31,498 bases of DNA from a virus. Shown here in pieces: positions 1-18,855 of this stretch. Location of the stretch: positions 1 through 31,498 of the IMG/VR virus record IMGVR_UViG_3300035430_000406; one strand, given 5' to 3'. The position numbers and the translations under genes are program-made. Numbering within the stretch: position 1 is the stretch's first letter; each line of letters begins with the position of its first letter. The notes beneath the pieces were generated by a model. It was given only the letters and a program-made list of their open reading frames with translations, had not been told where the DNA came from and did not search any database.

Positions 1-673
1 TTAATTTTGTGTTTTGATTAACGTATTCTGGTATGGATTCTTTATAGATATTCGACATAATAGTTGGAGTCCAGTCATCGCAGCACAAGTTAAAATCACC
101 GTTAAGATTAATAAAAAGTTTTTCAAAAACGAAACCGCAAGTCGAACCTTCGCACTTGTTCTGCTTGACGCTTTTTAAAAAGCCGCCCCTATTGCTAAAG
201 TCTTTTTTAAATTCTTCGTTATATTCTCCGTAATCAATTCCTACATCTGGGCGGTATTTTACTATTACGTTTTTATGTTCAGAGTATCTTTGTTTTTGTT
301 TTTCGTAAACTGATTTATCTACATCATATACATCTAGATTTATCCAAGAAAAAAGAGGAATATATTTTTCATATTTTTCTAACTTTTTTCCATTTGTATT
401 CATGTAGGCTCCATACTTTCTATCGCCCTTTAATAAAATATCTAAAATTTTATCAAAGTCTTTTGTTAGCGTGGGTTCTCCCCTGCCAGTAATTGAAATA
501 AATCTATCATAACCAGACTCATCTAATTGTTTTCTTATTTCTCTGGCGACCTCTTCTGAGATGTGAGCATTTTGATTGGGATAGCCCTCTGATCTCGGAC
601 AAAAACTGCACTTGAGGTTGCACAGTTCTGTAGGATTTATTTCTATTTTTTGTATTAATTTAAACCAATTCAT
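1..673 (-). CDS. Radical SAM enzyme with C-terminal cysteine cluster (3' end outside window)
   Basis: Read by translating back from the ATG at 673; 224 codons stay open to the window edge, so the C-terminus is missing. Residues 18-25 read CNLKCSFC, the CxxxCxxC site that binds the SAM-cleaving [4Fe-4S] cluster. GRGEPT at about 63-68 matches the family's SAM-binding GGEP motif. Near residues 176-205 there is a CEGSTC segment followed by CCDDW, which looks like a SPASM-type site for an auxiliary iron-sulfur cluster. SPASM enzymes often modify peptides or carbohydrates; the substrate here is unknown. The ATG overlaps the stop of the upstream glycosyltransferase (ATGA), so translation is probably coupled. 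It is the last visible gene of an operon containing two virion-like proteins. The radical SAM assignment is firm; its function is not. Confidence 0.88.
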   Translation of the reverse strand, partial: MNWFKLIQKIEINPTELCNLKCSFCPRSEGYPNQNAHISEEVAREIRKQLDESGYDRFISITGRGEPTLTKDFDKILDILLKGDRKYGAYMNTNGKKLEKYEKYIPLFSWINLDVYDVDKSVYEKQKQRYSEHKNVIVKYRPDVGIDYGEYNEEFKKDFSNRGGFLKSVKQNKCEGSTCGFVFEKLFINLNGDFNLCCDDWTPTIMSNIYKESIPEYVNQNTKL

Positions 674-1365
674 TTCCAATGTTTCATTATTTCATGTTCA
701 TCTTCATCAAAGTATTCCATCTTTGGTGGGCCATTAAAAATTGCGACACTGTGATCGTTTAGCATTTTCCAGACTGGTTTTGGGTGTATCAGATCTTTTT
801 CATCAAAATTATAATATTCGTCTGGTTTCGATCCCCTTGTATAAGAATAGAAAATGTCTGGCAAAAATGTTGGCTTTATTTTATTGGCGTAAAAATAATT
901 ATCTATTCCTCTGTGCTCTGCTATGTTTTTTTCTTTTTGCTTGAGCCAATTGTTGTAGATTTCTTTGTTATCTTTCCATACCATGCAGCTTGAATTATAC
1001 TCTGTACCAAACAAAAGTCTTTTCTTCCATTTTGAAAATATCAAAGAAAAATTTTCATCGTGTTCTAGCACTTTAGATATGCTGCCATGAATTATTACAT
1101 CCAAATCAAAAAATATTTTTTTATCATATTGATCCAGTTCCTCTCTGCCAAAAAGCTCTATTTTATTCCAGGCTGGCCAGTAATTTTTGCAGTCGTATTT
1201 ATTTATTGGGAAGGTTGTTACCTCTTCGTTAATGTCTTTGGTGTCATCGGTGAAACAAATAAACGGCAAGTCAGTTTGTTTTCTTATCATTGAGTATAAT
1301 ATATTTACATATTTTGCCGAATATTTTTCGCCAATTTTCAAACACACTATACAACTATTGCTCAT
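670..1365 (-). CDS. GT-A fold glycosyltransferase-like protein
   Basis: A 231-residue protein. The N-terminus (CIVCLKIGEKYSAKYVN) and the later FFDLDVII with a DxD at about residues 87-89 resemble small GT-A transferases (GT8-like), in which DxD holds the metal and the nucleotide sugar. Length fits a single catalytic domain; no signal peptide or membrane helix is seen. I start it at the ATG at 1365 (MSNSCIV) because the longer open frame lies deeper inside the upstream gene. This start leaves an 11 bp overlap with the upstream radical SAM gene. No Shine-Dalgarno site is visible, so it is probably translated by coupling. It lies between two radical SAM genes, suggesting a shared job such as sugar transfer to a protein or glycan. 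Donor and acceptor sugars cannot be read. Confidence 0.7.
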   Translation of the reverse strand: MSNSCIVCLKIGEKYSAKYVNILYSMIRKQTDLPFICFTDDTKDINEEVTTFPINKYDCKNYWPAWNKIELFGREELDQYDKKIFFDLDVIIHGSISKVLEHDENFSLIFSKWKKRLLFGTEYNSSCMVWKDNKEIYNNWLKQKEKNIAEHRGIDNYFYANKIKPTFLPDIFYSYTRGSKPDEYYNFDEKDLIHPKPVWKMLNDHSVAIFNGPPKMEYFDEDEHEIMKHWK

Positions 1366-2443
1366 AATATTTTTCAAATTCTGGGCAAAAATCAAAAAGA
1401 TCATTGCCTCTTATCTTATCTAATGATTTTAGATATATTAAACCTTGCTTGAATAGATTCAAGTCTGGTTCTACGTCTCTTATGGATTCTAGATTTGCAG
1501 ATGGCAGTTGATAACTTTTTTTTATTTCCGTTGGGATATTTTTGGGGCTCAAAATTGTTGGGAAATTCACCATATTAATTATCATGGTAGAATTAAATTC
1601 TTTTAATAGGAAAGATAAAAATTCACCCATATATCCAAAATTAACAATAGAAACACAAGAGGTGAACTTAACATTTATTCCCTGATTTATAAAAGTTTTT
1701 GCATTTTCGATACACTTGTCAAAATTCATTGGGTATCTGATATACTCGCATCTTTTGCCAAGTGCATCTACCGAAGCTAATATTGAGATTGATTTAAATT
1801 TTTTAAGTTTTTTTAAATTTTCTGGAATTATTGTCCTTGAACAATTACTGGTAAAATGCACATTTAGATGAAAAAAACTTTGCTGACAGAGCCAATCAAT
1901 AAACTCCCAAGTCATAGGGTTAATCAATGGTTCGCCGCCCACGAACTTAACAGATTTTGTGTAGGGTAGAACTTCTTTAAGCCCTTCAAGATAAGTTTCG
2001 GTGGGTTTTGAGGAAATTACAATTTCATCTTCCCAACCAAAGTGATTTTTAGCTTCTAAGGCAAGTGCGGAAGAAGCTGATGGCGAACACATTACGCATT
2101 TTTGATTACAAAGATTGCCTATGTGTTTTACTTTGATCGACTCAAATTCCAAACTGGATAAATCAGAATTAGAATATCTTAGATTGGAAGATTGTCTTCT
2201 GGACATGACACCATTCGATTCGTCAGAAATACATTTGCCACAAGTCTTTTTTACCAGCTCGGAGAAATTACCCTCTTCTTGATCTTTTCTTAATTGATTT
2301 AGTTCTTTTGAATTAAAAAAATCCAGAAACTTGGTGTCTTCAAGTTTCATGTCATTGACCCTTTTGCCTATGCAGCAAGGCTTCCAATAACCATTAGTGT
2401 TAGAAGAAATGTTTTTGTAAACTTCCGAACAAAGCCAAGACAT
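1355..2443 (-). CDS. Radical SAM enzyme with N-terminal twitch/SPASM-like cysteines
   Basis: A 362-residue protein. CNQKCVMC at residues 112-119 is the radical SAM cluster motif and GGEP at 169-172 is the SAM-binding motif. Further cysteines before the barrel (C5, C23-C24, C68, C71, the last two as CGKC) look like an extra metal site of the twitch/SPASM kind, placed N-terminally as in radical SAM proteins annotated in many marine phages. Members with such sites usually act on peptides or sugars; I cannot name a substrate. The start ATG shares its A with the stop of the upstream structural gene (TAATG), so it is tightly coupled to a virion-like protein. It overlaps the following glycosyltransferase by 11 bp. 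Class is confident, reaction unknown. Confidence 0.9.
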   Translation of the reverse strand: MSWLCSEVYKNISSNTNGYWKPCCIGKRVNDMKLEDTKFLDFFNSKELNQLRKDQEEGNFSELVKKTCGKCISDESNGVMSRRQSSNLRYSNSDLSSLEFESIKVKHIGNLCNQKCVMCSPSASSALALEAKNHFGWEDEIVISSKPTETYLEGLKEVLPYTKSVKFVGGEPLINPMTWEFIDWLCQQSFFHLNVHFTSNCSRTIIPENLKKLKKFKSISILASVDALGKRCEYIRYPMNFDKCIENAKTFINQGINVKFTSCVSIVNFGYMGEFLSFLLKEFNSTMIINMVNFPTILSPKNIPTEIKKSYQLPSANLESIRDVEPDLNLFKQGLIYLKSLDKIRGNDLFDFCPEFEKYYEQ

Positions 2444-3171
2444 TAACTACCTCGGTGATCAGCAGTGAATTGATAAGTTACAAGACCAGTTTCAAAGGCC
2501 AAAATGCCAGTTTGTCTTAAAATGACGGTTTTATCTTCGCTGGTTGAAGTTTCTTTTAATTCTACAATGCAGTCGCCGCCATGAGATATAGTGAATATTT
2601 CATCCCTGGGGGTATCTTGAAGATTTGAATTTGCTCTAACGATTGCTTCTATAAGATCTCCTGTTTGACCGTTTGAAAGAAAATCTCTATCAAAGTCTCC
2701 TCCGATAGCTCCGTTTAATGACTCTCCAGTAAAGTCTAAACCGCCAGGATTGTTAATAAAGCCTGAAGTTTGTTCTGGCCCAAAAATATCTTGATCAAAA
2801 ACTAGATTAGAATTTCCTCCCCCTTGAGTCCTTACAGCACTGGTTACAGGGAAGCTTAAAAATTTAACTTCAACGTTTGAGGGTAATCCAGTTACAGAAT
2901 ATCTAACTGGATCATAGGTTAAAGTTCTACTGGCAGTAGGTGTTGCTGATATTGTTCTAGGGGTATCTAATATAAAAGAAAATTGACCAGTATTCAAATC
3001 AGAAATGCCGAAGTCAGAAACGTATCTATCAAAAAAATTACCACTATTTATATTAATGATTTTTGAAATTTCAGCTTTCTTCATTTCGTTGTCAGAAGAG
3101 TCCACTACAACGACAAAATCTCCGCTTTGTGTATCTGTTAATTCTGTTAGATCTGTTATTTTTTTGCCCAT
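2443..3171 (-). CDS. Virion-like structural protein, paralog B of a tandem pair
   Basis: A 242-residue protein. Residues 1-40 carry the pattern KITDLTEL-x-SGDFVVVVDSS-x-KKAEISKI, often seen at the N-terminus of phage tail-fibre, head-fibre and decoration proteins, where it probably docks the protein to the particle. The rest is rich in short beta-forming stretches, Gly, Ser, Thr and Asn, with no enzyme motif. It is clearly homologous along its full length to the upstream gene (shared YSVTGLP, DQD-FGP, NGQTGDL-EAI-RA and SHGG segments), so the pair arose by duplication. The start ATG lies one base after the upstream stop, and its own stop overlaps the radical SAM start. A structural role is inferred from the N-terminal motif and composition. 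Confidence 0.65.
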   Translation of the reverse strand: MGKKITDLTELTDTQSGDFVVVVDSSDNEMKKAEISKIININSGNFFDRYVSDFGISDLNTGQFSFILDTPRTISATPTASRTLTYDPVRYSVTGLPSNVEVKFLSFPVTSAVRTQGGGNSNLVFDQDIFGPEQTSGFINNPGGLDFTGESLNGAIGGDFDRDFLSNGQTGDLIEAIVRANSNLQDTPRDEIFTISHGGDCIVELKETSTSEDKTVILRQTGILAFETGLVTYQFTADHRGS

Positions 3172-3172
3172 A

Positions 3173-3916
3173 TTAGCTTCCGTGGTTATCTGATGTGAAT
3201 TGATAAATCACATCATTAAATGTTAAAAATCCAGTTGTGATTAATTCCGCTGTAAAGCTGCCAGATGTGACAGTCTCTGTAATTTCCATCAAGCAGGGGC
3301 CGCCATGACTTAATGTGTAAGTCTCGGTGCCTACACTGGACTCTGGAAGATCTGCAGACCCTGTTGCTCGAATAATGGCCTCTACAAGATCTCCTGTCTG
3401 ACCATTTTGTATAGGAGATCTATTAAAATCAGAATTTACAAGACTATCAACGGTTTCAGCTTGGTAATCCAATCTTTCAAAAACATTTGTTTGTGTTGGT
3501 GTATTTGGCGGGCCAAAAAGATCTTGATCAGAAACTAAAGCATTATCATTGATTGCTGTTTCGCTATAACCAGTATTACTAGTGATTGGAAAAGTCAAAA
3601 ATCTTACTGAAACTCCTTGTGGTAATCCAGTAACGGAATATCTAACTGGATTATAGGTTAAACTTACAACTTGGTTATTTTGCTGAGTTGCCGTAACTGT
3701 TTTAGGAGTATCTAATATAAAATTAAACTGACCAGTGCTTAAATCAGAAATGCCTAAATTGGGAACATATCTTGCGGCGACATCGCCAGAATTGGTGTTT
3801 AGTATTTTGCTAGCTTCTACTTTTTTAGTAGTATCAGTCTCGGAATCAACAACCAATAAAAAATCTCCACTTTGGGGATTATCCAATTCGGGTAAGTCTG
3901 TTATTTTTACTGCCAT
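3173..3916 (-). CDS. Virion-like structural protein, paralog A of a tandem pair
   Basis: A 247-residue homolog of the gene that follows it. It has the same N-terminal docking-like pattern (KITDLPEL, SGDFLLVVDS, KKVEASKI) and the same downstream landmarks (YSVTGLP, DQDLFGP, NGQTGDLVEAI, SHGG, and YQFTSDNHGS at the C-terminus). No catalytic motif, signal peptide or membrane helix is seen. It appears to have its own promoter: an AAGTGTAAA box lies 8 nt upstream of the ATG in the 20 bp gap after the sulfotransferase gene. That fits a need for higher expression than the enzymes around it, as expected for a virion component. Two diverged copies side by side may form a hetero-oligomer or provide alternative receptor contacts; both ideas are inference. 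Confidence 0.65.
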   Translation of the reverse strand: MAVKITDLPELDNPQSGDFLLVVDSETDTTKKVEASKILNTNSGDVAARYVPNLGISDLSTGQFNFILDTPKTVTATQQNNQVVSLTYNPVRYSVTGLPQGVSVRFLTFPITSNTGYSETAINDNALVSDQDLFGPPNTPTQTNVFERLDYQAETVDSLVNSDFNRSPIQNGQTGDLVEAIIRATGSADLPESSVGTETYTLSHGGPCLMEITETVTSGSFTAELITTGFLTFNDVIYQFTSDNHGS

Positions 3917-3936: not shown

Positions 3937-4581
3937 TCAAAAGCTGTATTTAAAATAATCAATATCTTCGCCCCAAATTTCTTCCACTATTTCCCTGGAT
4001 CTGGGGCAGTAAATTTCTTTGTAATGTTTGTGGCTTGTTGAATTTTCTTTTTTAAGCTTTCTGTTGTGTTTTTCGTAGTATTCTTTTAAATCTGTTTCTG
4101 TTAAAAATGTTTCAAGATCTTCTGATAGATTTTCAAAGGTGAGCAAATATTTGATTCCAATTTTGTTGTTTGATTGAATATAGGATTTTTGAGTCCAGGA
4201 ATGCATGAAATCTTTTTCTTTTGAGATTTGTAAAAAATATTCGTAAAATTCTAAAAAATCGTCTTTAAAATCGCACCCATAAATTTTTTTAAAATTTATA
4301 AAATCATATTCATTAATCTTTTTGGCGAAACTAAACATTGAAACGGCTCGATCGTATGGGTTTCTAATGACCGCCAATGATGGAAGTGAAGTGATCTCTT
4401 GACCAAGTTCCTCAATGGCGGTTTCAAGCTTGCAGTGAGATGTTGAATAGATCTCTTCGTGTTCTGGGCGAATTTTAAGAGAATGCTCTCTGATTGTATT
4501 CGAAGCGCCGAAAAAATTATACAAAGAAGTACTGGCGTTTTTGGGTATTCTAACAAATGTTACTTTTTTGTTTTTGTTCAT
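3937..4581 (-). CDS. PAPS-dependent sulfotransferase family protein
   Basis: A 214-residue protein with both PAPS-binding signatures of the sulfotransferase superfamily. FVRIPKNASTSL at residues 10-21 corresponds to the 5'-phosphosulfate loop (the family's K-x-ST-x-L pattern), and AVIRNPYDRAVSMF at about 70-83 to the 3'-phosphate-binding R-x-P-x-R-x-S segment. Enzymes of this family move a sulfonate group from PAPS to a hydroxyl on sugars or proteins. Length is at the short end for a complete single domain. It overlaps the upstream gene by 32 bp, lacks a clear Shine-Dalgarno site, and comes before the structural pair and the radical SAM/glycosyltransferase genes. Sulfation of a phage glycan, a virion protein or the host surface is possible, but the acceptor cannot be told from sequence. 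Confidence 0.82.
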   Translation of the reverse strand: MNKNKKVTFVRIPKNASTSLYNFFGASNTIREHSLKIRPEHEEIYSTSHCKLETAIEELGQEITSLPSLAVIRNPYDRAVSMFSFAKKINEYDFINFKKIYGCDFKDDFLEFYEYFLQISKEKDFMHSWTQKSYIQSNNKIGIKYLLTFENLSEDLETFLTETDLKEYYEKHNRKLKKENSTSHKHYKEIYCPRSREIVEEIWGEDIDYFKYSF

Positions 4582-5077
4582 AATAATTTTTGTAATTAAC
4601 TTTTAGTAGGTAATGTGTCGGATATTGATTTTTTAAATATAAGTCTTCTATATAGAATTCTTCATCAGAAAAGAAAAATCTTTTGTTGTAATTTTTAAAA
4701 GATTCGTATTTTTTGCGATCTTTGTGCATTGGTATAATCATGTTTTTTATACCTTTTTCGGCGGTTTGAGCAAAAAATTTTTCAAAAAAGCATCTCACCT
4801 CGTGCATATTCGGTTCAAAATTCGTCACATTCCAAAAGAAAATGTCTGTAAAAGTGTTATCGCCAACATGGTGCGCCAACATCCCGCACTTTAACTTGTT
4901 TCCCTGTTTCATGAAGAGGTTGTGGCCACCGACGCTCATCCCAAAAAGCTCTTCAAAATCATCTTTGAATTTTTGTTGATTTAAATTATTAATAATTTTT
5001 TTAAATTGAATTTTAGCAATCATATAAGCCTCATGCTTATCAGTAGTATTGCAAAATTCATATTTATTTTCTTCCAT
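4550..5077 (-). CDS. Unrecognised protein, possible GNAT-fold acyltransferase
   Basis: A 175-residue protein without a decisive motif. The order of predicted elements resembles a GNAT fold: helices at residues 15-45, strands around 50-85 (KLKCGMLAHHVGD and TDIFFWNV), a helix (EVRCFFEKFFAQTAEKG), a strand (IKNMIIPMHKD) and a C-terminal strand (THYLLKVNYK). The R/Q-x-x-G-x-G/A acetyl-CoA loop is not obvious, so activity is uncertain. It leads the leftward accessory operon and has the best sigma70-like promoter in this part of the window (TTTACA, 16 nt, TATAAT, 8 nt, ATG). Its stop overlaps the sulfotransferase start by 32 bp. Several nearby genes encode group-transfer enzymes, which supports but does not prove such a role. 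Confidence 0.45.
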   Translation of the reverse strand: MEENKYEFCNTTDKHEAYMIAKIQFKKIINNLNQQKFKDDFEELFGMSVGGHNLFMKQGNKLKCGMLAHHVGDNTFTDIFFWNVTNFEPNMHEVRCFFEKFFAQTAEKGIKNMIIPMHKDRKKYESFKNYNKRFFFSDEEFYIEDLYLKNQYPTHYLLKVNYKNYYEQKQKSNIC

Positions 5078-5085
5078 ATTAATTT

Positions 5086-5113
5086 ATTATAAAATTAACA
5101 AAGAAAGTGTAAA
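5086..5113 (-). promoter_or_regulatory. Sigma70-like promoter for the leftward accessory operon
   Basis: On the minus strand TTTACA (5108-5113) and a perfect TATAAT (5086-5091) are separated by 16 nt, and the ATG of the 5077 gene begins 8 nt after TATAAT. A start 7 nt after the -10 would give an almost leaderless mRNA. The -35 overlaps the divergent box for the tail operon. Confidence 0.65.
5105..5113 (+). promoter_or_regulatory. Putative AAGTGTAA-type promoter for the tail operon
   Basis: AAGTGTAAA lies 8 nt before the ATG of the gpL gene. It matches the boxes before 18199, 25839 and 3916 in sequence and distance. There is no convincing -35 and no Shine-Dalgarno site in the short gap. Because it overlaps the opposing -35, the two directions may exclude each other. 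Confidence 0.5.
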
Positions 5114-5121
5114 GTAGAAAT

Positions 5122-6093
5122 ATGGGACAAGGTATAAACAAAGATGTGGCAACGGAGATACTTTCGCTAGAACCATCACAGGTTTTGGAGTTTTATCTAA
5201 TTTACTACGATTGGCCAGAGGATCCCAATAAAATTTTAGCGATCACCCCCATTTCTAACGGGTTGGGCCCAAAAGTTATTTGGCAAGGGCAGCAATACAT
5301 AGCTTTGCCCTTGGAGGGGTCTAATTTCAATACGTCTGGGGGAGGAGAATTACCCCGACCAAGATTAAAAATTTCTAATCATCAGTTAATTATATCTAAA
5401 TATCTAAAGGTAACAAATAATTTGATTGGGGCAAAAGTAGTCAGGAAGAGAACTTTTGCTAAATTTTTAGATGACGCAAATTTTGAGGGAGGAGAAAATC
5501 CCTTCTACGATTTATCTTCACAGGATTCTATGGCTTCTGGAGACTCTTATTTGCCAGAGCAGGTATTTTATGTTAATAGAAGAGTTTCCGAAAATAGGGA
5601 AATGGTTGAGTTCGAGCTTTCTTCGGTGCTTGAATTGGATAATGTATTTTTGCCAAATAGAAATGTGTATTCTAGGTACTGCACTTGGATTTATAGGGGT
5701 CATGGTTGTAGGTACGCTGGAAACCCCAAAACAGCAAACAATTCAGCCGCCTTTAAAGATTCTTCGGGAAGTACAGTAACTCCTTCAACCGCAAAGGGCA
5801 AGTGGGACAAAGATGTGACATACAACAAAGGGGATTTTGTATTTGTTGAGGTTTCAAACATGCCATTAAGAGAAGATGGCGATACTGATTTAAACAGCCC
5901 AGCCGAAAGATTAAAGTCATTTTATGTTTGTGTACAAGATGGGACAGTTGGAAGCCAAAATTTTCCACCAATTTCTCCGAAGTGGCAAAGAGATGAGTGC
6001 TCAAAGAAAATATCAGATTGCAAATTAAGATTTGGATCAAAATTAAGATTTGGAGGATTTCCAGGAACAAATGCATACCCACCAAAAGGCTAA
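5122..6093 (+). CDS. L: Minor tail protein L (gpL-like) with an inserted CBM5/12-like segment
   Basis: A 323-residue protein matching the lambda gpL family, which forms part of the tail tip and is reported to carry an iron-sulfur cluster in lambda. Family features seen: the N-terminal EFYLIYYDWPED/LPLEGSNF-like region, then cysteines C187 and C196 (YCTWIYRGHGCRYAG), and C293 and C300 near a FGGFPG C-terminus, likely the four cluster ligands. Between the two pairs is an insertion of about 95 residues. It includes a W-x-VTYNKGDFV segment, FYVCVQDG and a final P-x-W, which resemble small CBM5/12 carbohydrate-binding modules. First gene of the rightward tail operon; the order L, K, I, J is the lambda order. 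The next start lies inside its 3' end. Confidence 0.85.
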   Translation: MGQGINKDVATEILSLEPSQVLEFYLIYYDWPEDPNKILAITPISNGLGPKVIWQGQQYIALPLEGSNFNTSGGGELPRPRLKISNHQLIISKYLKVTNNLIGAKVVRKRTFAKFLDDANFEGGENPFYDLSSQDSMASGDSYLPEQVFYVNRRVSENREMVEFELSSVLELDNVFLPNRNVYSRYCTWIYRGHGCRYAGNPKTANNSAAFKDSSGSTVTPSTAKGKWDKDVTYNKGDFVFVEVSNMPLREDGDTDLNSPAERLKSFYVCVQDGTVGSQNFPPISPKWQRDECSKKISDCKLRFGSKLRFGGFPGTNAYPPKG

Positions 6094-6472
6094 AACATTA
6101 AAAGAAATTTTAATAGAATATTCGGAAGATTCACCAATGCGTGAAGCTTGCGGCTTTATTTGCTCGAAAGATGATGCTTTTTATTTCCAAGAGGCTATAA
6201 ACCATTCTGCTCAGGATGACACTTTTTCAATAAAACCTATGGATTATATCAAGAAAAAATTGGATGGCGATTTGGTGGCGATATTCCATACACATCTAGA
6301 GGGAACCGCAGATCCATCACAAAAAGATATAATTACTGCCCAAAATTTGCTTATGCCTTTTGCGATATATTCACTCGAAACCGAAAATTTTTCTGTATTT
6401 TATCAAGATGGCTTTGAAATAGAGCAAAATTGTGTAAAAAGACTCAAGAAGGAGCTGGCAATAGATGACTAA
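6071..6472 (+). CDS. K: JAMM/Mov34-type metallopeptidase-like tail protein (gpK N-domain)
   Basis: A 133-residue protein with a complete JAMM zinc site: H73 and H75 in HTH, then S83 and D86 (HxH-x7-S-x2-D), plus E25 just before the CGFI strand. Lambda-type gpK joins this domain to an NlpC/P60 peptidase; here only the JAMM half exists and the gene ends before any NlpC/P60 part. Such proteins act in tail-tip assembly and, in two-domain forms, may cleave peptidoglycan. I chose the ATG at 6071, preceded by AGGA at a suitable distance, over an in-frame TTG at 6050 further inside gpL. It overlaps gpL by 23 bp and gpI by 8 bp, consistent with coupled translation and with the gpK place in the tail order. 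Confidence 0.85.
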   Translation: MHTHQKAKTLKEILIEYSEDSPMREACGFICSKDDAFYFQEAINHSAQDDTFSIKPMDYIKKKLDGDLVAIFHTHLEGTADPSQKDIITAQNLLMPFAIYSLETENFSVFYQDGFEIEQNCVKRLKKELAIDD

Positions 6473-7049
6473 AATTTTTATACATGGCAAATTGGGCAAA
6501 ATTTTTGGAGAACATCATGAATTAAATATCCAAAAAAAAGTCGATGTCGTTAATGCCATCAATGCTAATCGTAAAGGATTTAAGCAGAAAATATTGTCTG
6601 ATTTTAAAAAGGGTGTTGATTATGATTTAATTAATCCAAATGATCCAGATAAAAAATGGAATACGGTTGATGAGTTTTTAAATGAACCAGCACCCGAAGA
6701 ACTTCATATCGTTCCATCTATTAATGGATCTGCTGGGCTTATTGCAGTCGGCGCAATTGTATTCAAGGCCGTAGTTGCAGTAGGTACTTTTTTGGGTAGT
6801 GGTGGCTTTTTGGCAAATTTGGCGCTTGGAGTAATATTAAATGGCATACAAATGTTATTGTTCCCCATGCCCAAGGGCCCCGCTGCACAGCAGGTGGAGG
6901 GTAAATTAGATCAATCTAGTTATCTTTTTTCTAGTCTGGATAATCAATCAGTCCAGGGTTTTGCAATACCTCTCGTTTACGGAGAATTAAGAATTGGTTC
7001 TAACGTAATTTCTGTAAACGTATTCAACGAAGATATAGACCAATCATGA
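6465..7049 (+). CDS. I: Tail assembly protein I (gpI-like)
   Basis: A 194-residue protein in the gpI position between K and J. The N-terminal part (FIHGKLGKIFGEHHEL, then an NAINANRKGFKQ helix) matches the ubiquitin-like first domain of lambda tail assembly protein I. Residues about 89-133 form two hydrophobic glycine-rich stretches that look membrane-seeking, also typical of the family. The C-terminus (IPLVYGELRIGSNVIS) matches the usual ending. gpI is needed for tail-tip assembly in lambda, though its presence in the finished particle is uncertain. A good Shine-Dalgarno sequence AAGGAG lies 10 nt before the ATG, one of the few in the window. Its stop overlaps the gpJ start as ATGA. Confidence 0.85.
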   Translation: MTKIFIHGKLGKIFGEHHELNIQKKVDVVNAINANRKGFKQKILSDFKKGVDYDLINPNDPDKKWNTVDEFLNEPAPEELHIVPSINGSAGLIAVGAIVFKAVVAVGTFLGSGGFLANLALGVILNGIQMLLFPMPKGPAAQQVEGKLDQSSYLFSSLDNQSVQGFAIPLVYGELRIGSNVISVNVFNEDIDQS

Positions 7050-10000
7050 GTTATTATAAAAATATATTTCAGAAAAGGATAGAGGTCGCTGGATCTAGTA
7101 AGGGAGCGAAGCCTGCCTTCATGATGCCTCCAGATGGAGCGTTTTCTAAAATAGGGTATGCCGTTTATGAAGCCTTAGATTTAATATGTGAGGGGCCAGT
7201 AGCTGGTCTTGTTGACCAAAAAGGTATTTTGCTTCAAGGCGATAGGGCAACGAAAAATTTCGATAGCCCTCTGAATGCGGTTGGGGATGATGATTCTGGA
7301 ATTGATAGGGGAATTTACTATAATGATATTCCATTGAGAACAGATGGTGGAGTACCAACCGCAGCAAAATACGACATATCTTTCATGTCTGGGGAAGAAT
7401 TTCAGGATGGGCCTAAAATATTAAAAAGTCCAAGAAGATTGGTTAAAGTCAATGAATCAATTAAGGGGCCATACATAGCGGGCGGAAATAGTAATGGGGC
7501 TAGAAATGGAACTGGAAGCCAAGACATAAGAACAGAACCTGAAGGAGGCAGCGCTCACCTGGGACCGAATTTATCTATTGTTGGCCAGGAGTTTGGTACT
7601 ACAGTTGAAGGAGAAGAATTTGTAGAAGATGATCAAATTTTTGGCGTAGATAGAGCAACAATTATATCCCTCATTGCAGCGCTAGCTGGGGCTAGCGCTG
7701 CTAGTGGAGAATCTAGGGATTTTGTGAATTGGCAAAATTTTATTCCAGCAGAAGTCCTTGAAAAACCATATCTTTATACAAATCATGATAAAGATGTTAC
7801 AAAGTTGGATATCACCTTAGTGGTAAACACCTTAAATGATACCAGAACTTCATCCACCGCAAGTGAAAATGAAGCTGGAAGAAGCAAAATGGGCCAACCG
7901 ACGCCAATAACAATAACATTTGAAATTGGAGTAGGCAAGGCGGACAAATTTGGCAACGAAACAATTTCTCCCGCATCTTTTGTCGCAAGAGGGGGAAAGG
8001 GCGTAACCTTGGGGGAGGGTAACGGACGAATTGCCGTAAGTGGCATCGTTACCAGCGCATATCATGTTTCAGTAGAGAATATTGTTTTACCAGAAATTGG
8101 CGAAGACGATCTTTATAATTTTATTAGAATTAGAAAAATCGAAGCCGAAACGTTTTCCAGTGTTGTTAATCGAAACGGTGGGGTAGCCCATATAGCAGAA
8201 ATAATAGATGAAACTTTATTGTATCCAAATTCTGTTATTGTAGAAAGCTCTATTGATGCAAAATATTTTTCGAATGTTCCGTCTAGAAGCTTTAGGCTTA
8301 AGGGTAAAAAAGTTTTAATCCCATCTAATTACACTCCTATAAATGCAGATGGAAGTGATAGAAGGTTTCATAAAGCGGGAGAAGCCAGCACAAGGGGCAA
8401 CTTAATATATAGCGGGGACTGGGATGGCACTTTCAAATTCGGTTGGACTGATAACCCCGCTTGGATTTATTATGATCTTCTTGTAAACACCAGATATGGT
8501 GTAGGTTCGTACTTAAGAGATGTTAATATTGTAGATAAATGGTCTCTTTATGAAATAGGTATGTATTGCGATGCGGTCACAATGAATGACAATAGTCAGC
8601 AAACAAAAGTATCGGGTGCTGGCGTTTTTATAGGATTAGACGATGGATTTGGTGGGCTAGAGCCAAGATTTAGTTCAAATGTTATAATAAGCGACCAGGC
8701 AAAAGCGTATGAAACTTTGCAGGATTTTGCAAAGTCATTTATGGCCATGACTTATTATAACAATTCCGTTGTAAATGTTAGAATCGACCAGCCGTTTTCG
8801 TTTGAAGGTTTTGAGAGAGATCAGCAATTTGAAGAAGATTTGTCTGATTCAGCAGAAGTTTCTGATGAGTTTATACCACCAAAGGAATTGCAATTTCCTA
8901 GTCATTTAAATTTCAACAACCTAAATGTTAAAGATGGAATTTTTGTCTACTCTGATGTAGATAAAAATACAAAATTTAATGCTGTAGAGGTTTCTTATCT
9001 AGACAAAAGAAATAATTTTACTTACAAAACAGAATATGAGGAAGACCCAGAATCAATTAAAAAAATTGGAGTTAATTTTAGACAAATGGCTGGATTGGGA
9101 GTTACCTCAAGGGGGCAGGCAAAAAGACTTGCTAGATCGTTGCTGTTTGAATCTATTAACACTAGTGAAAAAGTTTCCTTCACCGCTGGTTTGGATGCCC
9201 TTTTATTAGAGCCTGGGGATATTATTAGAATAGACGATGAGCTGAAGGGTTTTACTAAAAATTTCGGTGTTGTATTGGGGACTTCTGGGCAAACAACTTA
9301 TTATGATCCAGACTCAACTGGAATATTACCAGATATAACTACTGGATTAGGGCCAAGGGCTATCATAGTAGACCCAGCAAAACAAAGCGACCAATTGGAT
9401 TATTTAACTGGTGGAGTTCTGACAATAAGAAACCCTCTGGGACAAAGTGGTATCGATCAATTTTACTCCAACCCGACCGCAGACAATGATCTTTACAAAA
9501 GAATACACCAGCCACAAACGATAGAGCTTAAGTTGCATGTTGGTGGATCTGGACTTACTTATGATGTGTTGGATGATGGTTTGGCTTTATATATAGATGG
9601 AGTGGCGACATTTAAGGATGGAAGTGGTGGAACAAATTTACCGAGCCAATGGTTTTCTGAAAAAGATGTTAATATATTGCACGGGTCGCATTATACTGTT
9701 GATGCTAGTGGAAGGTTCCCTAGATATTATAGAGTTTTAAGTATAGAAGAATCCCCAGATAAAGGATTCGATGTATCTGCTACAGTATTCTATACTGGAA
9801 AACATAAATTTATCGAAGAGGGTATTAGTTTCGATATTAATGAAGATGTATTTGAACCAGAATTGAGCTTGAGTCAGGTGCAAACCCCAAATCCGCCACA
9901 AGGAATTTCTACTGGCGCATTTGTGCAACAAGCTGATAATTCTTTAGTTCTGCCAATACAAATTACTGGAGCAGCGAGTATCCCAGGGGATAGATTTGTG

Positions 10001-12457
10001 GTGATTTTAGAAGAGCCTAATACTAATTCAATAATAGGAGAAGTTAATAAAAGCGTGAGTCTTGTCACTAATTTTAATTTAAGTGGAAACCAAAAAATTG
10101 ATCAAATAGGAGATTATACTATAACTGTATTTTCTGAAAATGCTTCAACTAATGTAAGAAGTATTGGTTTTGCAACTTTAAATTTCTCAACAACTCCAGG
10201 CGACTTTTTGTTTGATATAAACAATGATGCATTCATAGAATATGCAAATATATCGCTTGATACAAATTTTGGACAGGGATACTCTTCCGTAGATAGAACT
10301 GGAAGTGGTGATAATTCATTTAAACAATTCGACCCGTCAATAAATGCCGTATTCGATATGGTATTTAAGGACGCTTTTAATAACAGCGGCAATGCAATTT
10401 TGCCGCAAGTTTCTGGGCAAATCATTAATCTAAAAAACGTTCAAGGAGATTTACTGGCTTCTCCATTAAAAACGTTGTCAAATGAAACCACCGTTACAAT
10501 AACAAACGACGAATTGAATAGCGGCTTTGGGTATACTGGTGATGGAAGATACCTTATACCGCCAAGTGTTGATTTTGAGATTTCGGAATTTACCTTAACT
10601 GGAACTGGCACTTCGACATCTAGTCATTTTGTTTCTTTCGAGGAATCGTTCGATGAGACCCCAGTGGTGTTTACTTCTCAAGTGTTAAATGATATTGAAG
10701 GCTCACATGCAAAAATTGGAATAGTGAGCGTAGGTTCGGGTGGTTTTACGATTACTGGTTTGAATGGAGTGGATTCTAGTTATAATTACATAGCTACAAA
10801 AACTGGAACTTTTTCATTAAACAATTCTCTTGAAAAAATTGAAGTTGGCATAGCTACAAAAACGGGTGCATCTGGATATAGTCAAGTACAATTTAGCAAT
10901 ACTTTTGATTCAGCGCCAAATGTCATAATTCAAATACAACAGCCAGAAACTGAAAAAGAAAGTTATTTTTCAGAAACTGTAATAACTGGAATAACCACAT
11001 CTGGATTTTCTTTTAATGCATTCCAACCAGATGGATCAAACCCCAGCGGAACAGGGAATTTTGCTTACATAGCTACAGAGGATAGTATATTTAATGTTTC
11101 AAGCTCAAGTCAGTTCCCGATTCAATCCATTAACTACGCATCAACGGGAGAAGCCTCTTTTGAGTTTACATCTGGAAATGTTTTTGAATCTATAAATGGC
11201 AGCAATAATGCTGGATTAAGATTTAATCACGATAATTCTGCCGTTTTCCCTCAGAGAATTGGAGTTAATGCTGGTATGCAAGATAAGTGCATGGCTGTTT
11301 TCAGAACAACTGGAGACACTAACCAAATATCGTTACATTATTTTGATAGAGACAATGCGACATCTGGAATGTATTTCGGGTCATCGGATGAAACTTTAAA
11401 TTTTATTGATGTTGAATCAACGGACGAATCTTTGGATATTACTGGATATTCAACAACCGTTACGCCTGGAACTTTTATTACAGGGGATGATGGTTTCCTT
11501 TTTGACGACCCCGATTCATCGGTTCACAGAATTATATGTGCGTTGGCAACACCAGTTCCAACTGGTGCGACCGTTGATGTTTCGTTCAATTGCTTAAATG
11601 AAACTGGTTCTTATACATACTTTTTGGGTAAATTAAATGGCCTTGGATTAGTGCAGACACCATCAACTACTAGTGTGGTGCTGGGATCAAATTCTCAAAC
11701 CATTGTAAATGGTTCAGAAATAGGATCTGGTTTGGTGTTTTTTGCAAACACCCTGGCTGGGGCACTTGAGGTAGAAAATATAGATGTTTCTATTAGTGGG
11801 GCGGCTGCTACGACTTACGACTTTACTGGAGATTTATCTCTGGAAACTTGGGCGAGGTTTGATGAAGGTTTAACAGGTAAACAGTATCTTTTTGAACACT
11901 ATCTAAGTGGGACTGGTATTGGATGGTTCCAGTCTGGAGATGGCAAAAATTACATAAATGTGAATGGAACGGATTTCGAGGCGAGTGCCACTAATTTGAA
12001 TGATGGAGAAAAGCATAATGTTAGAGTTATTCTTGATAGAGATGCTGGAATCAAAACATACGTTGATGGATCCCTGGATATCACTAATACTGGTATAACT
12101 GGGTCAGGTTTTACTGGCGATCTTTTTGCATCAACATCTTTCAAGGTTCTCGCAAATTCTCAGCAGACTGGATCTACCTTGCATCAAGGAGGGGTTTATC
12201 ACTATTTTGGATTTATCGCAAGCGGGATAACTGGAGATTACACAAATTCTCCAGATTTATTTAGGGATACATATAGTGGCCACGCTGATTCCGTATTTTT
12301 AATCAATACTGGAGAATCTTCTATTGTTGATTATACGGCAAACAACAATCAAGTAACCATAAGTGGAGACTTAATAGTTTTAGATCAACTAATTGATCAA
12401 ACATCTTTGGTTAGCGATATTAGTATATTACAAATTTCTTCTACTGGACAATTATGA
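7046..12457 (+). CDS. J: Tail tip host-specificity protein J (gpJ-like), 1803 residues
   Basis: The largest gene in the window. The N-terminus has the gpJ signature (FSKIGYAVYEALDLICEG, then GIYYNDIPLR), followed by the central-hub part with AWIYYDLLVNTRYGVG near residue 475 and LEPGDIIRIDDE near 725. From about residue 950 onwards the protein is a string of beta-rich domains. Around 1190-1360 two similar units each contain an F-x2-FD-x-xP-V element and end near YIAT; they resemble H-type-lectin-like receptor modules. Residues about 1590-1760 look like a LamG/concanavalin-type domain (LSLETWARF, TYVDGSLDI). Lambda gpJ is about 1130 residues, so the extra length is mostly C-terminal and is likely the receptor-binding part. 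It is followed by an ATGA overlap with the next virion gene. Confidence 0.9.
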   Translation: MSYYKNIFQKRIEVAGSSKGAKPAFMMPPDGAFSKIGYAVYEALDLICEGPVAGLVDQKGILLQGDRATKNFDSPLNAVGDDDSGIDRGIYYNDIPLRTDGGVPTAAKYDISFMSGEEFQDGPKILKSPRRLVKVNESIKGPYIAGGNSNGARNGTGSQDIRTEPEGGSAHLGPNLSIVGQEFGTTVEGEEFVEDDQIFGVDRATIISLIAALAGASAASGESRDFVNWQNFIPAEVLEKPYLYTNHDKDVTKLDITLVVNTLNDTRTSSTASENEAGRSKMGQPTPITITFEIGVGKADKFGNETISPASFVARGGKGVTLGEGNGRIAVSGIVTSAYHVSVENIVLPEIGEDDLYNFIRIRKIEAETFSSVVNRNGGVAHIAEIIDETLLYPNSVIVESSIDAKYFSNVPSRSFRLKGKKVLIPSNYTPINADGSDRRFHKAGEASTRGNLIYSGDWDGTFKFGWTDNPAWIYYDLLVNTRYGVGSYLRDVNIVDKWSLYEIGMYCDAVTMNDNSQQTKVSGAGVFIGLDDGFGGLEPRFSSNVIISDQAKAYETLQDFAKSFMAMTYYNNSVVNVRIDQPFSFEGFERDQQFEEDLSDSAEVSDEFIPPKELQFPSHLNFNNLNVKDGIFVYSDVDKNTKFNAVEVSYLDKRNNFTYKTEYEEDPESIKKIGVNFRQMAGLGVTSRGQAKRLARSLLFESINTSEKVSFTAGLDALLLEPGDIIRIDDELKGFTKNFGVVLGTSGQTTYYDPDSTGILPDITTGLGPRAIIVDPAKQSDQLDYLTGGVLTIRNPLGQSGIDQFYSNPTADNDLYKRIHQPQTIELKLHVGGSGLTYDVLDDGLALYIDGVATFKDGSGGTNLPSQWFSEKDVNILHGSHYTVDASGRFPRYYRVLSIEESPDKGFDVSATVFYTGKHKFIEEGISFDINEDVFEPELSLSQVQTPNPPQGISTGAFVQQADNSLVLPIQITGAASIPGDRFVVILEEPNTNSIIGEVNKSVSLVTNFNLSGNQKIDQIGDYTITVFSENASTNVRSIGFATLNFSTTPGDFLFDINNDAFIEYANISLDTNFGQGYSSVDRTGSGDNSFKQFDPSINAVFDMVFKDAFNNSGNAILPQVSGQIINLKNVQGDLLASPLKTLSNETTVTITNDELNSGFGYTGDGRYLIPPSVDFEISEFTLTGTGTSTSSHFVSFEESFDETPVVFTSQVLNDIEGSHAKIGIVSVGSGGFTITGLNGVDSSYNYIATKTGTFSLNNSLEKIEVGIATKTGASGYSQVQFSNTFDSAPNVIIQIQQPETEKESYFSETVITGITTSGFSFNAFQPDGSNPSGTGNFAYIATEDSIFNVSSSSQFPIQSINYASTGEASFEFTSGNVFESINGSNNAGLRFNHDNSAVFPQRIGVNAGMQDKCMAVFRTTGDTNQISLHYFDRDNATSGMYFGSSDETLNFIDVESTDESLDITGYSTTVTPGTFITGDDGFLFDDPDSSVHRIICALATPVPTGATVDVSFNCLNETGSYTYFLGKLNGLGLVQTPSTTSVVLGSNSQTIVNGSEIGSGLVFFANTLAGALEVENIDVSISGAAATTYDFTGDLSLETWARFDEGLTGKQYLFEHYLSGTGIGWFQSGDGKNYINVNGTDFEASATNLNDGEKHNVRVILDRDAGIKTYVDGSLDITNTGITGSGFTGDLFASTSFKVLANSQQTGSTLHQGGVYHYFGFIASGITGDYTNSPDLFRDTYSGHADSVFLINTGESSIVDYTANNNQVTISGDLIVLDQLIDQTSLVSDISILQISSTGQL

Positions 12458-13335: not shown

Positions 13336-13796
13336 GTTTTTTTAAAAAAATAATTAGCTTTTTTAAAACCCTGTCTTTTGTAGAATTTTTCCAGCCTCAC
13401 GTTTTCTTCTGAATTGCCAGAAACAACAATATCAAATTGATAGCTTTTAGAAACATCTTTAATGCTCTCTTTGAAAAGGGTTAGTGATGTTTTGGGGTCT
13501 TTTGATACCCAAATAAATTCACGCAAAATTTTAGATTTGGTGGAAAAATCAAAATCTTTAACCCAAATTATGCCGCCAAGGGGTTGGTTCTTTTTATTAA
13601 AAGAGGCGTATATAAAGAAATTTTTAAATCTTTCTGGATTGGAAAAGCATGACTTAAATGTATTTTTGTTGTACGGTGAACCGTAATGTGTTATAGGCCC
13701 AACGAGATCCGACACCCCATCTATCATGGAGTGCGAATCTTCGATGTTTTCGGCCTTACAAATCCAGCCTATAGGAGTTTTAACAATTTTCTGCAC
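13332..13796 (-). CDS. GNAT-fold acetyltransferase-like protein
   Basis: A 154-residue protein whose strand-helix order fits GNAT: FFIYASF strand, PLGGIIWVKDF strand, ILREFIWVS strand, a helix around LTLFKESIKDVSK, FDIVVSG strand, an NVRLEKFYKRQGFKK helix, and a last strand. The RLEKFYKRQGF segment is the common GNAT C-terminal signature; the acetyl-CoA pyrophosphate loop (Q/R-x-x-G-x-G) is weak. The most upstream plausible start is a GTG at 13796, which overlaps the upstream gene by 28 bp. It is the last gene of a leftward operon with the Rad52-like and glycosyltransferase genes. The substrate is unknown; small phage GNATs may act on proteins, sugars or nucleotides. Confidence 0.6.
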   Translation of the reverse strand: MQKIVKTPIGWICKAENIEDSHSMIDGVSDLVGPITHYGSPYNKNTFKSCFSNPERFKNFFIYASFNKKNQPLGGIIWVKDFDFSTKSKILREFIWVSKDPKTSLTLFKESIKDVSKSYQFDIVVSGNSEENVRLEKFYKRQGFKKANYFFKKT

Positions 13797-14521
13797 TCTT
13801 TTGCTGGAATGTCTTTATAATCTTCCCAGGATTTAATAATCTCTGGATCGTTAACATATTCTTTGTTCTTATAAAGCTCTCTAAGGTTAGCTTTGAAGTC
13901 TGAAAAGGTAAGACCCGCTTTTTCCTTCAAAATGCCTTGTGGGCTAATATCCTTTGCTCCAGAAGAGGATGGGGCGACTACGATAGGAGATTTATTCTTC
14001 GAGGAATCAATCTCGTCAGCACCAACAATATGAATACCAAGGAAGTTGCGAACAGTGCGAACAAATGCACGATTTTCTGCAATACACTCTAGGAACTTCG
14101 CCGCAAATCCGTTTGTATTGTGGATTGTAGCGTTGGCTAAAGACGAATAGTATAAACTGTGATGTGTGTCTAAACCATTTTCGTAGTTTGGCATAAAATT
14201 AATAACACAACGAACAACCGCTCTTTCGTCTGAACTTTCTTCGAGATCGTAGGTGACAGAATAAATTCCACGAAGCTTTGCAAGCTCTTTGATGCCGCTG
14301 AGCTTAATCAAAAGCTGGGAATCATCCAACCCTTCGATGGATTCTGGAACTGGCATCTTTCGCATCTCAAACCAATCTTTGTTGGGGTAAAGATGTTCTG
14401 GGTTAATCATGGCTCGCCAGTTGACGGAACCATCCTCATTAAAGATATAATCAACAGACTCTAGGAGTCCATGTTCGTTGCGCTTCCAGATGTCTGGGCC
14501 ATATAATTTATTCTTCGTCAT
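13769..14521 (-). CDS. Rad52/ERF-like single-strand annealing protein candidate
   Basis: A 250-residue protein. The core at residues 85-170 follows the Rad52/ERF pattern: a strand (IYSVTYDLEE), a charged turn (SSDERAVVRCVINF), a short link, then LANATIHNT and a helix FLECIAENRAFVRTVRNFLGI. The last helix resembles the AETRA-x-x-RALR motif of annealing proteins, which fold ssDNA onto complementary strands during phage recombination and end joining. Residues 175-200 are a likely flexible linker and the C-terminal basic helix may contact DNA or partners. Its operon begins with a possible ssDNA-binding protein, but glycosyltransferase genes lie between them. It overlaps both neighbours (14 and 28 bp). 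Family placement is by pattern only; a related recombination mediator is an alternative. Confidence 0.55.
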   Translation of the reverse strand: MTKNKLYGPDIWKRNEHGLLESVDYIFNEDGSVNWRAMINPEHLYPNKDWFEMRKMPVPESIEGLDDSQLLIKLSGIKELAKLRGIYSVTYDLEESSDERAVVRCVINFMPNYENGLDTHHSLYYSSLANATIHNTNGFAAKFLECIAENRAFVRTVRNFLGIHIVGADEIDSSKNKSPIVVAPSSSGAKDISPQGILKEKAGLTFSDFKANLRELYKNKEYVNDPEIIKSWEDYKDIPAKECRKLLKLL

Positions 14522-15629
14522 ATAAATATAAACTTTCTAATTCTTTTGATGAGGCTTCATCATAGACGAAGTTATTTGATTTGTCAAGTCTTTTTGCGGA
14601 AGATTCTGATCTAAAAACTTCGCCATTAGATACGAACCTTTTCTTAGAGAGAAATTTTGCAGCTTTTATTTTTTCATCAGGGCTAACATCTTCCAACACG
14701 TTAAAATCAAAATACTTTAAACGAACAGAAGAAACCTTACTTTTGTCTTTGACTCTGATTATGACTTGGATTTTTTTGTTTTTTAAAATTTTAAAAAATT
14801 CTGAAAGATCGGTTTCTTCGTGTTCGTCGTATTCGTAAATAACTTGCTTTAGATTAGGCATATATTGCAAGGCTTCGGTATCGAAAATTTCAGATAAGTG
14901 GAGGCTCACAATACACATTTGACTCCATTGGCAAATGTTGTTTAAATCAAAATGCAAATCTCCCCTAATGTTTACTGGTTTGCCAGCTAATTCTTTTGAA
15001 TACCCAAAGAAGTTTGGTATAATTTCAACAGTATCGTTATTGAAATTTGATCCCATTCTAATTGTTTTGAAATTAATTTTTTTGGGAATCTCTAATTGAT
15101 CTAAAATAGCTTGTGCGATTTTTTCTGGCTTGATTTCGTTGATTCTTTTACAGTTTGTCCCGAAGGAAGGTTTGTTTTCGGAAAAATCTGGGCACAAACT
15201 AATGCAGGAATTATTTTTATGCCAAAGTGGTTTTGAGTTTTCTGGATAAAGATTAAAATGTAAAATCACCGATGGAACATCGTAAATACTGGAAACGTGG
15301 GCTGGAAGACTATCGCAACCAAAATGAGCTTTAGAATTTTTGATTACATAGTTCATTTGCCTGTAAGAGTTTCCTAGGGTGGATGAATCTATTCCGTTTA
15401 TTTGTTTATCTTCTGGGCCGCCCACTTGAACTATCTTTATGTCGCCAAGGTGAGGTTTGATTAAATTTAATACCAAATCCCAATACAAATAATTTGCGGC
15501 TGGCATCTTGTTTGATGCCTGAAGAGTTACATATTTTTCAGGAAGTCCTGGATAAAAATGATCTGTAATTACGGGCTTGCCGATTTTAACGCCCAAATCT
15601 TTTGCATAAACTTCAGCTATATGACTCAT
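14508..15629 (-). CDS. C-terminal half of a split GT9-like (heptosyltransferase-type) enzyme
   Basis: A 373-residue protein. Residues 1-140 match the second Rossmann domain of GT9 ADP-heptose:LPS heptosyltransferases: an early YVTLQAS strand, a VQVGGPED strand-turn, and HFGCDSLPAHVSSIYDVPSVIL corresponding to the family's -DS-x3-H-x2A- nucleotide-sugar site. The first Rossmann domain is missing here; a matching segment lies at the end of the gene at 16007-17695. The rest (about 190-373) contains no motif I recognise. The start (MSHIAEVY) looks like the inter-domain link of an intact GT9 enzyme. It overlaps the DUF6165 gene by 17 bp. Likely role: completing a GT-B glycosyltransferase by association with the N-terminal half. 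Confidence 0.65.
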   Translation of the reverse strand: MSHIAEVYAKDLGVKIGKPVITDHFYPGLPEKYVTLQASNKMPAANYLYWDLVLNLIKPHLGDIKIVQVGGPEDKQINGIDSSTLGNSYRQMNYVIKNSKAHFGCDSLPAHVSSIYDVPSVILHFNLYPENSKPLWHKNNSCISLCPDFSENKPSFGTNCKRINEIKPEKIAQAILDQLEIPKKINFKTIRMGSNFNNDTVEIIPNFFGYSKELAGKPVNIRGDLHFDLNNICQWSQMCIVSLHLSEIFDTEALQYMPNLKQVIYEYDEHEETDLSEFFKILKNKKIQVIIRVKDKSKVSSVRLKYFDFNVLEDVSPDEKIKAAKFLSKKRFVSNGEVFRSESSAKRLDKSNNFVYDEASSKELESLYLYDEE

Positions 15630-16017
15630 ATGATTTTACTTCTTTTACGTTTGAATTTGTAAGTTGATTAATTTGGTTTTTGATTTCAAAGCGTTTGTCG
15701 TTTGTGTGATATACGTCTCTAGCAAGACGAATAAACCTTGCGCCAAAATCTTTATTTCTTTCACATTCTGTGATATTATCTTCAATATGCCAAAGGCCTA
15801 AGTTAATTTGATAAAGATCGGCTTTCAATGCATAGAATTGAGATTTTGAAACCGATGTCGATGAAAAAACTACTTCAATAAATGCCGCAGAAAGTTGTTC
15901 TTTTTCGTTTTTGACTTCGTTGAGCTTATCTTCGTCTTTGATCATTGCCGATTTGATTTCAAGAATCGTCAGTTTATCAACAAGCTCGCCTACTGATATT
16001 GGTGTATTAATTTTCAT
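15613..16017 (-). CDS. DUF6165 family protein
   Basis: A 134-residue protein with the hallmarks of DUF6165: ISVGELVDKLTILEIK at the N-terminus, LYQINLGLWHIEDNI in the middle, and FIRLARDVYHTNDKR followed by a KNQINQ helix. The fold looks all-helical. Family members commonly sit beside glycosyltransferase and TPR genes, but their role is not established. The ATG at 16017 (MKINTPISVGE) is preferred to a TTG at 16026 because family members start this way. It overlaps the upstream glycosyltransferase by 11 bp and the downstream GT9 half by 17 bp, so it physically separates the two GT9 parts. It could bridge the halves or be an unrelated insertion. Confidence 0.8.
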   Translation of the reverse strand: MKINTPISVGELVDKLTILEIKSAMIKDEDKLNEVKNEKEQLSAAFIEVVFSSTSVSKSQFYALKADLYQINLGLWHIEDNITECERNKDFGARFIRLARDVYHTNDKRFEIKNQINQLTNSNVKEVKSYESYS

Positions 16018-18198: not shown

Positions 18199-18855
18199 AT
18201 GGCTTATTTAAATCATAATTTGCCCACTTTTACTTGTTTTATTAGGAACGAATATCTTTTTAATCATGAAAAGGGACATAAGGAATATACATTATGCGAC
18301 GTTCACTCAGTGGCGTCTATGGAAAAAAGAGTGCCATTATTTGAATGTTACTTAGATAATGGAGTAAATTGGACAAGAAGGCCAATAACAGCACTATGTT
18401 GGAAGAAATGCGACCCTGTTCCTCTTGAGGAGTCTATGTATTGGGATTGTTTTTCTCCGTATGTTGATGTTAATATTAGAACCAGATTGAAAGGCTTGAG
18501 GGCGGTTTTAATTACGCCATCAAACAAAAGAGAATGGGGCGAATATATGTTTACTATTGATTGGGCTTGGGAGAGTAAAAGCGTATTGGATACAAATTTC
18601 TCAGAGCATCCAGAACATAAGTGTGCGCATTTTTTCAAGATGGAAAATGGCAACTTTTATGCCTATCCAAACAATAGAATAATTTGGCATGATGATGCAT
18701 GGGTAGAAAAGCCGCTTACATCAAACCCTGGATACCAAATCGATCAAAATGTTTATAGCGTAGAAAACAAAAGAATTAAATACACAGATAATTCTTTCAT
18801 GACAGAATTTAGTGATCTGAATTACACTGAGAAGGATTCAAAAAACGAATCGTAG
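18199..18855 (+). CDS. Unrecognised conserved-looking phage protein, single-gene unit
   Basis: A 218-residue protein, the only plus-strand gene in the right-hand part of the window. It is rich in Trp, Tyr, His and Cys, with cysteines at residues 13, 33, 50, 67 and 71, and segments such as TFTCFIRNEYLFNHEKGHKEY, VPLFECYLDNGVNWTRRP and WDCFSPYVDV that look like tightly conserved surface or core motifs. No known catalytic triad, nucleotide-binding loop, signal peptide or membrane helix is evident. It has its own AAGTGTAAT promoter-like box and runs into the leftward 18822 gene, overlapping it by 34 bp at the 3' end. The shared box with the tail operon hints at late expression. I do not recognise a function. 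Confidence 0.6.
   Translation: MAYLNHNLPTFTCFIRNEYLFNHEKGHKEYTLCDVHSVASMEKRVPLFECYLDNGVNWTRRPITALCWKKCDPVPLEESMYWDCFSPYVDVNIRTRLKGLRAVLITPSNKREWGEYMFTIDWAWESKSVLDTNFSEHPEHKCAHFFKMENGNFYAYPNNRIIWHDDAWVEKPLTSNPGYQIDQNVYSVENKRIKYTDNSFMTEFSDLNYTEKDSKNES

Follow-up and report, generated by a model that had tools for sequence, protein, structure and literature searches.

The left 5 kb of the IMG/VR virus record IMGVR_UViG_3300035430_000406, a linear stretch of 31.5 kb that was analysed in full and is termed here the window, carries two fibre-like genes, VP1 and VP2, in a single run with genes for a GNAT-type acetyltransferase, a sulfotransferase, a glycosyltransferase (GT) and two radical S-adenosylmethionine (radical SAM) enzymes, rSAM1 and rSAM2. 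We understand this region as an exchangeable host-recognition locus, in which fibres with swapped C-termini travel with glycan-tailoring enzymes that would alter the surface glycan of the infected host, a reading to which we give about an even chance. VP1 and VP2 would be duplicate fibres for receptor binding or decoration, each attached to the particle by a short conserved N-terminal module (N-module), which leaves the swapped C-terminal domain to contact the host; the acetyltransferase, the sulfotransferase, GT, rSAM1 and rSAM2, co-oriented and tightly packed, would form a glycan-tailoring set able to edit a sugar by oxidation, epimerisation or other means, to transfer it, and to sulfate or acetylate it. 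Once the surface glycan of the host is so altered, sibling or competing phages would stop binding. The genes of the unit, all on the minus strand and divergent from the plus-strand tail-tip genes beside them, follow one another in the order given here, together with the two features that border them:

4550 to 5077, minus strand: GNAT-fold acetyltransferase, first gene of the unit (AlphaFold2 model and PDB fold match; orthologues in syntenic relatives)
3937 to 4581, minus strand: carbohydrate-type sulfotransferase (PF03567, phrog_3347, motifs)
3173 to 3916, minus strand: VP1, fibre-like, with the N-module (about residues 1-45) and a unique C-terminal domain (N-module profile, slot)
2443 to 3171, minus strand: VP2, paralogue of VP1 (53% identity, N-module profile)
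1355 to 2443, minus strand: rSAM1, radical SAM enzyme with an N-terminal twitch domain (NF033640)
670 to 1404, minus strand: GT, of the phrog_1962 type, its start probably at codon 14 (phrog_1962, DLD motif)
2 to 679, minus strand: rSAM2, radical SAM enzyme with a partial auxiliary-cluster domain, cut by the contig end (PF04055, BtrN)
5086 to 5113, minus strand: promoter-like sequence, TTTACA-16-TATAAT, which agrees with the consensus at 11 of 12 bases and lies within the 44-base gap just upstream of the unit (weak)
5122 to 12457, plus strand: divergent tail-tip genes, which anchor the slot in relatives (PF05100, phrog_18, phrog_32)

An earlier note, made from the sequence of the stretch, had described the last five of these minus-strand genes, from VP1 to rSAM2, as an operon. 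The open reading frames, their strand and their order were recovered exactly as it had them; the unit was nevertheless incomplete, for the sulfotransferase and acetyltransferase genes had been left out and rSAM2 runs off the contig. The promoter-like site in front of the unit is weak evidence, as the total of such sites in the window is not above the count in shuffled sequences. The tail-tip set comprises tail L (PF05100, 148.8 bits), the gene at 6050-6472, a tail assembly protein (phrog_32) and a central-fibre J-like protein of 1803 residues; judged by these genes, the phage is a tailed one with a lambda-like tail tip.

The nature of VP1 and VP2 is best seen from the same slot in related phages, found as syntenic relatives through tail L and J; in the close ones tail L is 58-69% identical. 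Starting from tail L, the order there is a gene for a 198-residue protein (not in all cases), the acetyltransferase, the sulfotransferase, one to three fibres, a second sulfotransferase (PF13469, Sulfotransfer_3) and a DUF4376 gene, some relatives being without parts of it. The tandem genes of this slot begin with MADKKISxLTELTSAxxxTDFLPVVDxxxxETKKI, and it is this N-module that they have in common with VP1 and VP2. A hidden Markov model (HMM) built from nine N-modules of the relatives, with the window sequences left out, gave 33 bits for VP2, 24 bits for VP1 and no further match in the window, against a best score of 9.9 bits in 2000 shuffled VP N-termini. The C-termini of the relatives' fibres are unrelated to those of VP1 and VP2 and consist mostly of BspA-type leucine-rich repeats (PF13306, 223 bits in L020), with a long FIGGG-type repeat in L071 and a different domain in L021. 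Two of these slot genes are striking for their size: a leucine-rich repeat fibre of 1187 residues (L072, 1504-5067), and at least 690 residues of Cys-rich FIGGG repeats (L071, 1-2070). It is because a conserved N-module is joined to swapped C-termini in tandem copies that we read these proteins as receptor-binding or decorating fibres. VP1 and VP2, 53% identical, are by these signs fibre-like proteins of the virion type, as the earlier note had proposed, and their place in the virion is inferred from the same comparison. Neither was recognised as a member of any family in Pfam, PHROGs or NCBIfam, and searches for relatives of the C-terminal domain in 50,697 phage records, Pfam, PHROGs, NCBIfam and PDB sequences found none. 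In IMG/VR, queries with VP1, VP2, both aligned or the C-terminus alone revealed no further carrier, in a search that needs exact 8-residue words and that distant relatives may escape.

What distinguishes the window from its sisters is the presence of the radical SAM genes. PF04055, which finds both of them when the window is searched as a positive control, is absent from the 23 records that gave the tail L and J matches, contigs of 113, 87 and 84 kb included, and from 50 others, of which the majority have the N-module; all these related viral records may be fragments, so that absence from a single one says little, but none of the 73 departs from it. At the place of rSAM1, GT and rSAM2 the sister phages have the second sulfotransferase and the DUF4376 gene (29.6 bits, cut-off 25), which weakly matches tail and tail-fibre PHROGs, and the rSAM1-GT-rSAM2 segment looks like a replaceable cassette. 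Since sister phages keep such fibres at the same spot without radical SAM enzymes, these enzymes look like an exchangeable cassette rather than a fibre-modifying machine. That the slot moves between phages is shown by L020 and L042, where the second sulfotransferase is 93% identical and tail L 34%. Left of tail L, in a similar way, the fibres of L042 and L045 are 60% identical to those of L014 and L015, with a tail L at only about 34%. By such discordant identities the recognition module is one that is exchanged horizontally between phages.

The enzymes of the unit point to glycans. rSAM1 matches NF033640 (N_Twi_rSAM, NCBIfam) with 228.7 bits for a cut-off of 170, its residues 3-360 lying on positions 3-398 of the model, and it has all seven cysteines that are invariant across the 10 members compared, namely Cys 112/116/119 of the CxxxCxxC motif and Cys 5/23/68/71 of the twitch. 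The description of rSAM1 as twitch/SPASM-like in the earlier note thus stands for the twitch, which is N-terminal, and falls for the C-terminal SPASM domain. We know of no established substrate for NF033640. Among Pseudomonadota genomes, sampled twice with partial overlap (385 and 398), the family was found in three, and every locus lies amid polysaccharide genes:

L168: GT2, GT41-like protein, methyltransferase, NAD-dependent epimerase
L176: RfbC, RfbD, ABC-2 exporter, WbsX, TylF-type methyltransferase
L177: sugar epimerase, GT2

L176 carries four enzymes of the NF033640 type in tandem, the first of which is fused in one open reading frame to Wzt, the ATPase of O-antigen export, and Wzt_C (8579-11143; genome G553, contig 19). 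GT2 genes, taken as a rough background, number 17 (1.9 Mb), 12 (2.9 Mb) and 11 (7.5 Mb) in these genomes, so that chance alone would hardly place one so near, within a few kb, at least in the 7.5-Mb genome. Queries with rSAM1 and with the sulfotransferase gave no match among phage records; the single GTDB-contig match to rSAM1 (L158) was set aside as a generic radical SAM protein of no bearing here.

The other enzymes fit this picture. rSAM2 carries CNLKCSFC and matches PF04055 (48.9 bits, 1e-12). Its SPASM score (20.4 bits) is below the cut-off of 21.5; Cys 176/181/199/200 are present, and the C-terminus is missing as the gene runs off the contig. The earlier note was therefore right about a second radical SAM enzyme, whereas the type of its auxiliary cluster cannot be fixed on a truncated gene. 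Its nearest solved structure is BtrN (4m7t, 8.7e-7), 2-deoxy-scyllo-inosamine dehydrogenase, which acts on an aminocyclitol; the alignment spans rSAM2 residues 7-218 and takes in the beginning of the auxiliary domain, but identity is low and, with the C-terminus missing, the activity of BtrN cannot be transferred. The assignment of GT as a glycosyltransferase, already made in the note, is upheld by its match to phrog_1962 (3.1e-12) and by the DxD motif DLD at residues 100-102. The sulfotransferase, found at the equivalent place in several relatives, belongs to PF03567 (58.9 bits, cut-off 22), which we take to be a family of carbohydrate sulfotransferases, matches phrog_3347 (1.8e-13), and has RIPKNAST and RNPYDR as motifs for binding 3′-phosphoadenosine 5′-phosphosulfate. 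The first gene of the unit, nameless by sequence, gave an AlphaFold2 model with a predicted local distance difference test score (pLDDT) of 93.2 from an alignment of 12 sequences, which in the PDB comes closest to GNAT acetyltransferases (E 6e-6); orthologues 41-55% identical have a conserved place in the syntenic relatives. The polysaccharide context of NF033640, the likeness to BtrN, PF03567, GT and the acetyltransferase, taken together, favour a glycan over a peptide as the putative substrate.

That this glycan would be the one at the surface of the host is our leading inference; it agrees with the published reading of glycosyltransferases in comparable clusters (PMC7029224). Of the kinds of locus described so far, the nearest is the pelagimyophage host recognition cluster (HRC). 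This hypervariable island holds fibres and glycosyltransferases; radical SAM cassettes were added there between two close genomes, and the glycosyltransferases are read as modifiers of the O-chain that block coinfection (PMC7029224). Fibres with glycosyltransferase and radical SAM cassettes that vary between close relatives are found in the slot of the window too. HRCs, however, are flanked by VrlC and gp14 in T4-like myophages, whereas the locus of the window has tail-tip genes of the lambda type beside it. Its genes form a compact unit, on the other strand from those of the tail, and include two paralogous fibres in tandem and the pair of sulfotransferase and acetyltransferase. By analogy, it is a locus that would work like an HRC, yet outside the HRC lineage.

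Several points weigh against this understanding of the locus. rSAM1 passes the cut-off of its family with all the invariant cysteines, but with an identity of no more than 22-26% to the bacterial members compared it may act on another substrate. There are just three bacterial contexts, controlled only roughly, with GT2 frequent in one of the genomes (17 in 1.9 Mb), and the phage members of the family in L002, L004 and L005 adjoin genes that read as oxygenase-, desaturase- and ATP-pyrophosphatase-like, not plainly glycan genes. The AlphaFold2 model of VP1, made from two sequences, is unusable (pLDDT 35). Finally, the C-terminal domain of VP1 and VP2 and the radical SAM cassette have both been seen only here, and they might be a matched pair.

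The main rival to alteration of the host surface is glycosylation of the virion, where the enzymes would make or edit a glycan on the particle, for example on VP1 and VP2, that shields it or aids its binding. We hold it possible but doubtful. The enzymes do share their unit with the fibres, the sulfotransferase recurs beside fibres with quite different C-termini, and virion glycosylation is known in mycobacteriophages, as cited in PMC12619734. Yet this N-module is also found on fibres that have neither GT nor radical SAM genes with them, the glycosylation of VP1 and VP2 is itself putative, and the reading published for such clusters is in favour of the O-chain of the host (PMC7029224).

Somewhat less likely still is a reading of the radical SAM and GT genes as morons, unrelated metabolic cargo that settled in a variable slot, acts on a small molecule of the host and has nothing to do with adsorption. 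Such cargo has a model in Campylobacter phages, where an interchangeable module holds five of the 11-12 radical SAM genes (PMC2853527, for CP220 and CPt10). rSAM2 has its phage relatives in the module of CPt10, where several radical SAM genes stand downstream of baseplate and PAAR genes and one is matched at about 30%. That module, however, includes a glycine amidinotransferase, has no glycosyltransferase or sulfotransferase annotated in the stretch viewed, and is not coupled to fibre genes of the VP1/VP2 type. In the window, the companions of the radical SAM genes (sulfotransferase, GT and acetyltransferase) all fit glycan decoration and adjoin the fibres, and the clade also keeps glycosyltransferase-type genes at 14508-17695.

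The interpretation of the earlier note, only partly supported overall, was that the virion protein is itself the substrate of an operon resembling those that make ribosomally synthesised and post-translationally modified peptides (RiPPs). rSAM1, rSAM2 or both would then modify residues of VP1 and VP2 directly, by crosslink, epimerisation or thioether; we find this improbable. In its favour come the TAATG junction of VP2 and rSAM1, the many peptide maturases among twitch/SPASM enzymes, and the joint occurrence, so far only in the window, of these radical SAM genes and the C-terminal domain of VP1 and VP2. The TAATG is indeed there, but it is uninformative, because the identical one-base overlap stands at three more minus-strand junctions (17695, 19586 and 22593, four in all), the remaining minus-strand neighbours mostly overlapping by 10-30 bases; neighbouring genes here are tightly packed as a rule, and we rejected the coupling as functional evidence. 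Neither enzyme reaches the cut-off of any NCBIfam peptide-maturase equivalog, no PqqD-type RiPP recognition element (RRE) was matched in Pfam, which RRE folds can escape, and VP1 and VP2, with 242-247 residues and one Cys each, have no leader/core layout. The polysaccharide neighbourhood of NF033640, the aminocyclitol substrate of the nearest solved relative of rSAM2 and the sister fibres that do without the enzymes (0/73 records) make a protein substrate less likely than a glycan. By the note's own account, relatives that keep the structural pair without the enzymes would reduce the link to one of position: such relatives exist for the fibre architecture, the exact C-terminal domain having no other carrier found. 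A related proposal, to which we attach as little likelihood, would make this domain and rSAM1-GT-rSAM2 a matched set by which the phage modifies its own receptor-binding fibre through radical chemistry, possibly adding a sugar as well. We know of no earlier virion protein matured by radical SAM chemistry, and, if true, this would be one.

Elsewhere in the window, the minus-strand block at 13769-17695, with g13769 and two glycosyltransferase-like genes (14508-15629 and 16007-17695), is 62-85% identical across relatives and mostly better conserved than the tail genes; it is probably, from this conservation, a core glycan function of the clade. The minus-strand gene at 18822-19586 codes for a product with PF04377, ATE_C, the C-terminal domain of arginine-tRNA-protein transferase (34.3 bits, cut-off 25); 77% identical in L068, it reads as a phage-encoded enzyme like aminoacyl-tRNA-protein transferases. 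A ClpA/B-like protein, by reading an N-domain with one AAA module (21097-22593, minus strand), adjoins a DnaE-type polymerase gene (22593-25163), and both have relatives at 52-77% in L068, L069 or L072.

In the library of papers that was searched, none names radical SAM together with phage tail fibres and sulfotransferases. The combination has precedents, as we have seen, and what is new is the type of phage, the compact unit with paralogous fibres bearing a unique C-terminal domain, and the sulfotransferase and acetyltransferase companions. The tie of the little-known N_Twi_rSAM family to surface polysaccharide, witnessed by three bacterial clusters and the fusion to Wzt, gives a hint of where the substrate of this family should be sought. 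If the exchangeable host-recognition locus is what we understand it to be, it would make a compact, testable case of a phage that swaps its receptor-binding fibres along with sugar-modifying enzymes.

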